Positions 52,756 through 56,489 of a stretch of 64,000 bases of DNA are shown piece by piece. Source of the DNA: Cytophagales bacterium. Its GTDB lineage: Bacteria > Bacteroidota > Bacteroidia > Cytophagales > Spirosomataceae. Where the stretch lies: NCBI GenBank assembly GCA_013298865.1, contig JAAFJL010000004.1, forward strand, positions 1 through 64,000, read 5' to 3'. The stretch's first letter is position 1. Each line of letters starts with the position of its first letter. The notes under the pieces are model-generated. The model saw only the letters and a list, made by a program, of their open reading frames with translations, was not told where the DNA came from and searched no databases. Position numbers and translations under genes: made by a program.

Positions 52756-53583
52756 ATGAATAACCTTTCAGACATAGCCGTTGTAATTTTGAATTATAAT
52801 GGTCGAGATTTTCTCAAGAAATACCTCCCTTCCGTAATTCAATATTCTGGGGATGCACAGATTATTGTAGCAGACAATGCTTCTACTGATGATTCTTTGG
52901 AAGTAATAAAACAGGGTTTCCCTGAAATTAATACTATAATCTTGCCAGAAAACTACTGGTTTGCCAAGGGCTACAACCAAGCATTGAAACAAGTAAAAGC
53001 AAAATATTTTGTTTTGTTAAATTCAGATGTAAGGGTTTCGGAGAATTGGCTTCAACCAATGTTAAGTCTCTTAGAATCAGATAGTTCAATAGCGGCTTGT
53101 CAGCCTAAAATTTTGGATGATAAGTCACCAGAATATTTTGAATATGCCTCACCCGCAGGAGGGTTTATTGACTATTTGGGCTATCCTTTTTGCCGAGGAA
53201 GAATTTTTGATACTATCGAAAAAGATGAAGGACAATATAATGATACCATTGAGGTTTTTTGGGCTTGTGGAGCTTGTATGTTTGTCAGGGCAGATATTTT
53301 TCAAGAATTAGGAGGCTTTGATGATGATTTTTTTGCTCATCAAGAAGAAATAGACCTTTGTTGGAGAATCAAAAATGCAGGATATAAAATCTATACTTGC
53401 GGAGAATCAACTATTTATCATTGGGGCGGAGGAACACTCAATTATGCCAGTTTTAGAAAGACTTTCCTTAATTTCAGGAATTCCTTGGCAATGGTTTACA
53501 AAAATCACTCACCAGAAGGATTAGCCAAAGATATTTTCCTGAGATTAATTTTAGATGGTGTTGCTGGCGAACACTATTGGTAG
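52756..53583 (+). CDS. GT-A family 2 glycosyltransferase, probably C-terminally shortened
   Basis: 275 residues. The GT2 fold is clear: VVILNYNGRDFLKKYLPSVI at the N-terminus, ADNASTDDS, LPENYWFAKGYNQALKQV, LLNSDVRV (the NSD metal-site motif), ACGACMFVRADIF, and DDDFFAHQEEIDLCWRIKNAGYK, a family hallmark. Related proteins usually run 330-350 residues, with a final set of helices after the segment ILDGVAG; here translation stops at GVAGEHYW. The shortened end may still be active, since the catalytic domain is complete. Likely acts in cell-surface polysaccharide synthesis. It is followed by 430 bp with only the csp leader. Confidence 0.85.
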   Translation: MNNLSDIAVVILNYNGRDFLKKYLPSVIQYSGDAQIIVADNASTDDSLEVIKQGFPEINTIILPENYWFAKGYNQALKQVKAKYFVLLNSDVRVSENWLQPMLSLLESDSSIAACQPKILDDKSPEYFEYASPAGGFIDYLGYPFCRGRIFDTIEKDEGQYNDTIEVFWACGACMFVRADIFQELGGFDDDFFAHQEEIDLCWRIKNAGYKIYTCGESTIYHWGGGTLNYASFRKTFLNFRNSLAMVYKNHSPEGLAKDIFLRLILDGVAGEHYW

Positions 53584-53840
53584 AGATTCTTAATTTATCT
53601 CCCAAATAGGTACACACTCCAAAGACTTGATTTTCAACGTAATATTTTAGATTCTCCATAATTATTAATGAGTTACGATAAGCAAAGTTACTATTTTATT
53701 GAAAATATCTATAATTAAGAACAATTAAATTAAAGATATGTTTACTAAAATGTCAATTTTTTATTGGAATAGTTATAAAACAATGTGTTTGAGTAGATTC
53801 AAAAATAATCCAATAAATATCTATTTTTTTTTGTAACTAC

Positions 53841-53870
53841 TTGTATATCCAATAATTATACTTACATTTG
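53841..53870 (+). promoter_or_regulatory. Bacteroidota consensus promoter of the first cold-shock gene
   Basis: TTG (53841-53843), 19 nt, then TACATTTG (53863-53870): an exact match to the TTG-N19-TAnnTTTG consensus. Transcription should start near 53876, giving a leader of about 140 nt before the ATG at 54016. Confidence 0.75.
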
Positions 53871-53879
53871 ACTTATTAA

Positions 53880-53990
53880 AGTCTCAAGAACGAGGTGATT
53901 TTAAAGTTAAAAGAAGTTTTTTAAGACTCAAATCTAAAAACGTACAGTAACCCGAATCCTAAGTCTTACACTTGGGATTTTTGTTTTTTA
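53880..53990 (+). promoter_or_regulatory. attenuator-like leader of the first cold-shock gene
   Basis: Four segments can pair in competing ways. Segment 1 AGTCTCAAGAA (53880-53890) pairs with segment 2 TTTTTAAGACT (53918-53928), allowing one C-A mismatch and a G-U pair. Segment 2 TAAGACT (53922-53928) also pairs with segment 3 AGTCTTA (53962-53968). Segment 3 lies in a terminator hairpin, AATCCTAAGT (53955-53964) with ACTTGGGATT (53970-53979), followed by TTTGTTTTTT. Folding 1:2 would free the terminator; folding 2:3 would block it. No leader peptide is obvious. A temperature-sensitive switch is an inference. Confidence 0.55.
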
Positions 53991-54015
53991 TATTTTTTAT
54001 TTTTTAATTTTTTTT

Positions 54016-54210
54016 ATGCAAACTGGTAAAGTAAAATTCTTTAACGAGAGTAAAGGCTTTGGTTTCATCACTGATGATGAGTCTGGTCAAGAAATTTTTG
54101 TTCACGTGACAGCCTTGGGTGGTATCACACTTCGTGAAGAGGACAGAGTTTCATTCGACATTGTCGAAGGTAAGCGTGGGTTGAACGCAGACAACGTTAA
54201 GAAAATGTAA
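54016..54210 (+). CDS. cold-shock domain RNA chaperone, copy 1
   Basis: A 64-residue single CSD protein: QTGKVKFFNESKGFGFI, with RNP1-like KGFGFI and RNP2-like EIFVHVTAL, and EGKRGLNADNVK at the end. It binds single-stranded RNA/DNA and melts RNA structure at low temperature. There is no purine-rich ribosome site; the bases before ATG are almost all T and A. It is controlled by the promoter and the attenuator-like leader upstream. It differs from the second copy (54417) at a limited number of positions. Confidence 0.95.
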   Translation: MQTGKVKFFNESKGFGFITDDESGQEIFVHVTALGGITLREEDRVSFDIVEGKRGLNADNVKKM

Positions 54211-54305
54211 TTTTCTTAGTGGGTTTGGTTCCCAAAAATTTCGTGAAATCGTTATCATTATTGTGATTTATGATCGTTTAATGGATATAGATTTTCGAGT
54301 AAGTG

Positions 54306-54341
54306 AAAGACTCCTAATTATTCACTAATTAGGAGTCTTTT
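54306..54341 (+). terminator. intrinsic terminator between the two csp genes
   Basis: AAAGACTCCTAATT (54306-54319) pairs perfectly with AATTAGGAGTCTTT (54327-54340), followed by T. It makes separate transcription of the second csp gene likely. Confidence 0.85.
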
Positions 54342-54416
54342 CAAGTCTGACAATTATGGTTCAGATAATACCCTTAAAATTTGAGTTTATTTTTTTATTA
54401 ATTATTTATTTTTTTT

Positions 54417-54611
54417 ATGCAAACTGGTAAAGTAAAATTTTTCAACGAAAGCAAAGGCTTTGGCTTCATCGTTGATGACGAATCAAACGAAGAAATCTTC
54501 GTACACGTAACAGGTTTAGGTGGTACTACGATTCGTGAAAATGATCTTGTTTCTTTTGAAGTAACTGAAGGAAAACGTGGATTGAATGCCGTTAACGTGA
54601 AAAGAAACTAA
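54417..54611 (+). CDS. cold-shock domain RNA chaperone, copy 2
   Basis: A 64-residue CSD protein, paralogue of the gene 207 nt upstream: the same start (QTGKVKFFNESKGFGFI) and the same RNA-binding aromatic residues (F10-type FF, KGFGFI, IFVHV). Changes cluster after residue 20 (DDESNEEIF, LGGTTIREND). The ATG is preceded by TTTATTTTTTTT, as in copy 1, without a Shine-Dalgarno sequence. No attenuator-like hairpin is seen in its leader, so the two copies may be expressed under different conditions. Confidence 0.95.
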   Translation: MQTGKVKFFNESKGFGFIVDDESNEEIFVHVTGLGGTTIRENDLVSFEVTEGKRGLNAVNVKRN

Positions 54612-54773: not shown

Positions 54774-56489
54774 TTACTCAAACCATTTCATAACTTCATC
54801 CTTTTGTGGAATTGAAATATCTAATTTCAATTTCTTTCTCATTCCTCCCAAATCGTTAAAAACTTTATTAGGATTTGCTTCTTTCAAGGCTGTGATAGTC
54901 ATGAAGCCCATTTTTTGCAATACTGGAATCCATTCAACTGGTACGCCAATGGCTTGATATTCAGCCTCAGTAGCCATTTCTGATTTCTTTTCTGGACGCA
55001 TCTGTGGGAAGAAAAGTACTTCTTGGATAGACGTTTGATTAGTCATCAACATCGTTAGGCGGTCAATCCCTATACCTATTCCTGCTGTTGGGGGCATTCC
55101 GTACTCTAATGAACGCAAGAAATCTTCATCCATTGCCATAGCTTCATCATCCCCTCTTTCTGCTAATTTCAACTGTTCTTCAAAACGTTCACGCTGGTCG
55201 ATTGGATCATTTAATTCTGAATAAGCATTGGCAATTTCTTTTCCATTAACAAATAATTCAAAACGCTCAACTAAACCTGGTTTACTTCGATGTTTTTTAG
55301 TCAAAGGAGACATTTCGACAGGATAATCAATAATAAAAGTTGGCTGAATCAGGTTTGCTTCTACTTTTTCACCAAAGATTTCATCAATCAATTTACCAGT
55401 TCCCATAGTGCCATCAACTTCAATTCCCCATGATTTACAGTGTCCACGAAGGGTTTCTTCGTCCATACCTTCCACATTTACGCCAGTATATTTTTCGATT
55501 GCTCCAGCGATACTCAATTTAGTAAACTCGCCACCAAATTCGATTTCATTTTCCCCTACTTTAATATTTGTTTGCCCATTGGTTGCTAATGCTACTTTTT
55601 CAAAAATCTCTTCGGTGATTTTCATCATCCAGTTATAATCTTTATAAGCAACATAAAACTCCAAAGAAGTGAATTCTGGATTATGAGTTCTGTCCATACC
55701 TTCGTTTCTGAACATTTTACCGAACTCATAAACACCATCAAAACCACCAACAATTAATCTTTTTAGGTATAATTCATTGGCAATACGCATAAATAGGGGC
55801 ATATCAAGCGTATTATGATGCGTTTTGAACGGACGAGCAGATGCACCACCATGAATTGATTGAAGAATCGGCGTTTCAACTTCAAGCCAACCTTTTGCAT
55901 CAAACATTGACCGCATGGTTGTAACGATTCTTGAACGTTTCAAGAAAATATCTTTGATTTCTGGATTTACAATTAAATCCACATAACGCTGACGATAACG
56001 CATTTCTGGATCTGTAAAACCGTCAAAAATTTTACCATCTTCATCTCTTTTTACTACGGGTAATGGCTTTAAAGATTTATTCAAAATCTTGAATTCGGTA
56101 ACATGGATAGAGGTTTCTCCTGTTTGTGTCGTAAAAACATAGCCCTTTGCTCCGATAATATCACCAATATCTAAGAGTTTTTTGAAGACCGTATTGTAAA
56201 GTGTCTTGTCTTCGTCGGGGCATAAATCATCTCTACGAAAATATAATTGAATCCGTCCAGTTGAATCTTGTAATTCAGCAAAAGAGGCACTTCCCATAAT
56301 TCGGAAAGACATCAAACGCCCCGCAATAGAAATACTTTTATAATCTATTTTATTGTTTTCATAGTTCTTCAAAATATCTTCAGCCGTAACATTGACTTCA
56401 AACATTTCGGCTGGATATGGGTCAATTCCCATTTTTATCAATTCTTCTCGCTTCTGACGACGAAGTAGTTCTTGTTCTGAAAGTATCAT
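54774..56489 (-). CDS. lysS: lysine-tRNA ligase, class II
   Basis: 571 residues. An N-terminal OB-fold anticodon-binding domain (residues ~55-155, [20 protein letters not shown]) is followed by the class II core. Motif 2 is [20 protein letters not shown] and motif 3 is [13 protein letters not shown]. The last ~65 residues after QMRPEKK ([20 protein letters not shown]) form an extra helical domain with a helix-hairpin-helix-like look, typical of Bacteroidota LysS and absent from E. coli. It joins lysine to tRNA-Lys in the cytoplasm. Single gene with its own terminator. Confidence 0.95.

Follow-up and report, generated by a model that had tools for sequence, protein, structure and literature searches.

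The leader of csp1, a cold-shock protein gene of a Spirosomataceae bacterium, contains what is, on the evidence of folding prediction, a genuine intrinsic-terminator-like element, and the stretch that separates it from the start codon is a U-tract that is a signature of these csp genes. Our results support a terminator inside the csp leader and do not support the four-segment attenuator that an initial annotation of the same DNA had proposed; the U-tract is a stronger signal in this leader than the four-segment claim. The locus lies in the window (the whole 64,000-nt stretch that was analysed), part of the 5.69 Mb draft genome of a relative of Arcicella.

Csp1 and its tandem paralogue csp2 each encode a protein spanned entirely by the cold-shock domain (PF00313), and the LysS encoded at 54,774–56,489 shares up to 95% identity with that of Arcicella. 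The gene order in Arcicella (L005) is glycosyltransferase, PspC (minus strand), csp1, csp2, and lysS; Pseudarcicella sp. (L012) has the same order with one additional gene ahead of lysS, and in A. rosea the first four genes stand together with lysS on a different contig. The tandem csp pair beside lysS is thus kept in Arcicella. Compared with both genera, the window glycosyltransferase upstream of csp1 (52,756–53,583, plus strand) is shortened and the PspC-like gene (53,474–53,659, minus strand) is an N-terminal fragment, as though a deletion, or else misassembly, had joined the two. Coordinates of all features discussed are given in Table 1.

Table 1. Features of the csp1–csp2 region (window coordinates)
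Feature	Position	Strand	Evidence or measure
Bacteroidota-type csp1 promoter: -33 TTG (53841-53843), 19-nt spacer, -7 TACATTTG (53863-53870)	53841..53870	+	sequence match
Predicted 5'-proximal leader hairpin, rival to pairing 1:2	53876..53904	+	MFE prediction
Claimed segment 1 (AGTCTCAAGAA)	53880..53890	+	present; pairing with 53918-53928 transient only
Claimed segment 2 (TTTTTAAGACT)	53918..53928	+	present; 7-nt complement to 53962-53968 within chance
Intrinsic-terminator-like hairpin GAATCCTAAGT-CTTAC-ACTTGGGATTT (claimed 3:4)	53954..53980	+	11 bp, -11.2 kcal/mol
csp1 U-tract, terminator to start codon	53981..54015	+	29/35 T
csp1, 64-aa cold-shock protein	54016..54210	+	Pfam CSD PF00313, 72 bits
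Hairpin AAGACTCCTAATTA-TTCAC-TAATTAGGAGTCTT between csp1 and csp2	54305..54341	+	-18.4 kcal/mol
csp2 U-tract abutting ATG	54382..54416	+	26/35 T
csp2, 64-aa cold-shock protein, tandem paralogue of csp1	54417..54611	+	Pfam CSD PF00313, 65 bits

The promoter was found exactly as the initial annotation had described it, and it fits the TAnnTTTG consensus with a -33 element reported for Bacteroidota (PMC7366714). A. rosea csp1 (L010) has the final 17 of these bases (AATTATACTTACATTTG) unchanged in its own upstream region, so the two promoters are very probably orthologous. Downstream of it, a stem of 11 pairs (53,954–53,964 with 53,970–53,980), slightly longer than had been claimed, is directly followed by the T-run TTGTTTTTTA—a stable stem-loop immediately before a U-run, as in an intrinsic terminator—and ends 35 nt before the csp1 ATG. 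Its predicted ensemble pairing probability is 0.96–0.99 at 10–37 °C, and when the preceding 115 nt were shuffled 1000 times, an equally stable hairpin with a U-run arose once. A generic terminator scan of the surrounding 10 kb is by itself no evidence, because its count (seven sites) equals that in shuffled sequence (6.7); what counts instead is the strength, position, and U-run of this particular hairpin. The preceding gene stops at 53,583, so the hairpin, 370 nt further on, is unlikely to be its terminator. With a consensus promoter upstream and no TAnnTTTG promoter between the hairpin and the csp1 ATG, a csp1 transcript initiated at that promoter has to run through the hairpin. Two relatives (L128, L135) carry a terminator-like element that resembles one hairpin arm and the T-run: at the 3' end of a gene unrelated to csp, an ATCCC...TGGGATTTTTGTTTT hairpin is likewise followed by a U-run. 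Those elements, however, come after a stop codon, whereas the window hairpin comes before a start codon.

The initial annotation had gone further, predicting on/off control of read-through from three mutually exclusive pairings, in which segments 2 and 3 would form an antiterminator and pairing 1:2 would release segment 3 to terminate. Each quoted segment sits at its claimed coordinates, and the 3:4 stem is real in the sense described above; the other two pairings did not hold up. As a crude proxy for transcription, we calculated how probable each pairing is in the whole leader and in RNAs stopping at successive 3' ends, at 10, 20, 25, and 37 °C; being equilibrium calculations, these do not reach kinetic effects or protein-stabilised folds. 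Pairing 2:3, a 7-bp helix of -3.6 kcal/mol at 37 °C, attains an ensemble probability of at most 0.043, at 37 °C in RNA ending at 53,968–53,970, falls lower in the cold, and drops to zero at all four temperatures once segment 4 emerges; the check that the initial annotation had suggested, folding at 10, 20, and 37 °C, thus finds it negligible at each. Nor would it compete effectively with the terminator, since it touches no more of the stem than 53,962–53,964, three pairs out of 11; the other eight would still form a stem ahead of the same U-run. A 7-nt Watson–Crick complement between the leader and the terminator arm or loop appears in 8.9% of shuffles, or 25.6% when G–U pairs are allowed. Pairing 1:2 (10 of 11 positions, -3.5 kcal/mol) reaches a probability of 0.22–0.38 only when the RNA ends near 53,930, and later gives way to the predicted hairpin at 53,876–53,904, which is the minimum free energy structure at 10, 20, and 37 °C for RNAs reaching 53,985, and also for RNAs starting at 53,872–53,876.

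Comparison with relatives was equally unfavourable to the switch. When searched without most of its U-tract, the promoter-leader region matched only itself among 222 family genomes (221 of them others); a search with the U-rich part kept was discarded, its matches being unrelated T-rich or terminator sequence. The complementary segments accordingly have no counterpart in relatives—an outcome that the initial annotation had itself named as counting against its model—and neither conserved nor covarying alternative pairings were found in the 221 other family genomes, which come from other genera only. Even the leaders of the syntenic Arcicella csp1 genes are unrelated to that of the window downstream of the promoter and carry different 3' hairpins. 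We consider the four-segment attenuator very improbable: complementary segments do exist at the places described, but the central pairing is negligible before segment 4 is made and absent after it, its complement is within chance, and the family holds no homologous leader. A version coupled to the ribosome, in which translation of a 9-codon GTG frame (53,895–53,924, VILKLKEVF) ending inside segment 2 changes the fold, seems to us more remote still, as the leader has no ATG and short GTG frames are expected by chance; this one is probably such a case. Of the predicted switch, then, conditional read-through is still a fair idea because a terminator-like hairpin stands between a good promoter and the csp ATG, and the RNA switch itself is left without support. 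The negative result is useful in pointing tests toward the hairpin and U-tract and away from segment 2.

How widespread are such leader terminators? In Pseudarcicella sp., the csp1 leader (L012) carries a terminator-like hairpin (CCAAAGTCTATCTCAGCACTTTGG) followed by nine T in the same place as that of the window. Because this hairpin shares no sequence similarity with the window hairpin, the arrangement may be recurrent even though the segments themselves are not conserved. Across the family, a terminator-like hairpin at least as stable as -6 kcal/mol was found within 150 nt in 10 of 100 csp upstream regions against a shuffle mean of 3.5, and in three of the ten it lies between two tandem csp genes. 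These counts do not support the leader terminator as a family-wide csp feature; among family csp genes it is occasional, not the rule.

Other csp leaders in the family have shared sequence of their own. Those of Arcicella and Flectobacillus csp1 genes are about 200 nt long and have a block AGTTTTCAAGAGTNYGTCA...CTCNTTGATTATCAA in common; the hairpins at their ends are unrelated. In these leaders (L005–L011, L015, L017, L020, and L094) we observed a near-invariant block, TTCAAGAG...CTCNTTGATTATCA, that could fold into a stem and is missing from the window csp1 leader. Consensus folding of the 11 leaders yielded 10 pairs (energy -2.4) in a stem that hardly varies and shows next to no covariation; the 3' hairpin was absent from the result. 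A different common block, ACAAAGTCNGT...GGTNCCTGTTT...CTTTTGT, with complementary ends, occurs in several other family genera (L146, L148, L153, L154, L158, L162, L163, L168, L096, and L113); consensus folding of an automatic alignment of these leaders gave no structure, and we regard the block, judged from its sequence, as a sequence motif. Spirosoma-type csp leaders gave no structure on consensus folding.

The U-tract is the more distinctive feature. The 35 nt before the ATG are 83% T in csp1 and 74% T in csp2, compared with an average of 33% (sd 9%) and a maximum of 49% across 48 window genes, the set on which these statistics rest; pattern searches covered the whole genome. A pattern built on the csp1 tract, with ATG as its end and three or fewer mismatches allowed, matched the genome twice, at csp1 and csp2, and a reversed-pattern control matched once in the whole genome. 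The csp1 match follows by construction, so the informative results are the csp2 match and the lack of others. Across 16 relatives the pattern matched 35 times, and 15 of these sites, spread over 13 genomes, are at csp genes; of five non-csp sites that we read, four led into open frames of roughly 8–50 codons and one into a lipoprotein-like gene (G009).

At most csp2 genes the U-tract is present without an adjoining terminator, so the tract could serve another function, such as one in translation. The window's own csp1–csp2 gap does contain a hairpin, and no TAnnTTTG promoter was found from it to the csp2 ATG (window 54,211–54,416); with a terminator-like hairpin ahead and no such promoter after it, csp2 may depend on read-through from csp1. 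The csp1–csp2 gaps of L015, L017, L020, and L094 also hold a terminator-like hairpin followed by the ATG with no TAnnTTTG promoter, the distance from hairpin to ATG being only about 30 nt in L020.

Csp proteins bind oligo-T/U RNA. The reading we consider most likely, while holding it tentatively and short of an even chance, is a leader terminator that works but leaks, with its read-through set in trans. The csp1 transcript would begin near 53,876 and reach the intrinsic terminator (53,954–53,985) before the csp1 start codon, where some transcription would end and some read through, both the termination and its partial nature being our inference. In a leader with no dedicated antiterminator helix, read-through would depend on RNA polymerase and growth state, and perhaps also on a Csp, a candidate trans factor here, binding the U-rich RNA formed by the terminator U-run and the 35 nt before the ATG. 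The strong, non-random hairpin with its T-run, the csp-specific U-tract, and the upstream promoter favour this reading; against it, leader terminators are not general among family csp genes, and the U-tract occurs at other csp genes that lack a terminator next to it. In E. coli, CspD associates with nascent transcripts, lowers intrinsic termination, and increases leader-regulated genes such as tnaCAB and thiMD (PMC9765468), whereas B. subtilis CspB and CspD alter terminator read-through mostly in favour of termination (PMC8307031), so any Csp effect here could go either way. A more specific proposal—that the csp-specific U-tract of Spirosomataceae is a Csp autoregulatory site, fused here to a leader terminator so that Csp tunes its own synthesis through termination—is speculative, and we think it improbable.

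Two other accounts of the hairpin deserve weight, each unlikely in our estimation. It could instead be a 5'-UTR stability or translation element that shields or presents the U-rich stretch before the ATG, an account that would suit the other family csp leaders in which a stem-loop precedes a U-rich stretch without a clean U-run: the Arcicella hairpins (TTCACAACG...CGTAGTGTGAA), with compensatory-looking changes in their upper stem, and the short 5'-end hairpins of L142, L160, and L170, which lie too near the promoter to be terminators. Yet in the window the U-run directly follows the stem as in terminators, two relatives have a similar arm and T-run where an unrelated gene ends, and the Arcicella/Flectobacillus consensus fold missed the 3' hairpin.

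Rather improbable, too, is that the hairpin, the U-tract, and the first five codons are of csp2 type, acquired when the tandem paralogues recombined or underwent gene conversion, and form a leaky leftover with no regulation. The window csp1 start (ATGCAAACTGGTAAAGT) and U-tract are indeed csp2-type (the Arcicella csp1 start is ATGCAAACAGGNACAGT) and the remainder of the gene is csp1-like, a combination that paralogue exchange would explain on what is thin evidence, and the hairpin resembles those between csp1 and csp2 in Flectobacillus (GAATCCCAG...CTGGGATTT). However, the csp2-like stretch is short and the difference in identity small (0.91 versus 0.86 over 30 nt), the window's own csp1–csp2 hairpin is different, and Pseudarcicella csp1 (L012) shares the start ATGCAAACTGGTAAAGT, so that the state may be old.

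What is known about the control of csp genes comes mainly from Proteobacteria and Firmicutes, and if the leader terminator and U-tract are functional they would represent a simple, testable form of it in Bacteroidota; a limited search of the open-access literature found no such csp control in that phylum. A known csp leader is the E. coli cspA 5'-UTR thermosensor, which refolds, changing translation and stability, and which likewise exceeds 100 nt and contains stem-loops. Rfam gave no match over the window at the gathering score, and at a relaxed threshold chance-level matches only, none of which identified a cspA thermoregulator. An 8-nt window sequence, ACGTACAG (53,940–53,947), resembles the E. 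coli cold box (UGACGUACAGA) and does not lie in a hairpin at the 5' end. The csp mRNAs of L142, L160, and L170 would start with a small, cold-box-like hairpin, e.g., CCTG-ACGTA-CAGG; as a general csp feature the cold box was rejected, since of 135 csp upstream regions just 7 contain ACGTACA/GACGTAC-like strings.

Attenuators of the trp and riboswitch types also place a terminator hairpin in the leader before the first gene, but the window leader has no competitive antiterminator helix, conserved ligand element, or leader-peptide element. Csp-dependent terminator read-through, as in E. coli at metY-rpsO and, for CspD, at SgrS, tnaCAB, and thiMD, shares with our leader an intrinsic terminator upstream, U-rich RNA, and a candidate Csp. 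Unlike in those systems, the gene behind the window terminator is csp itself, with the role of Csp here a candidate one.
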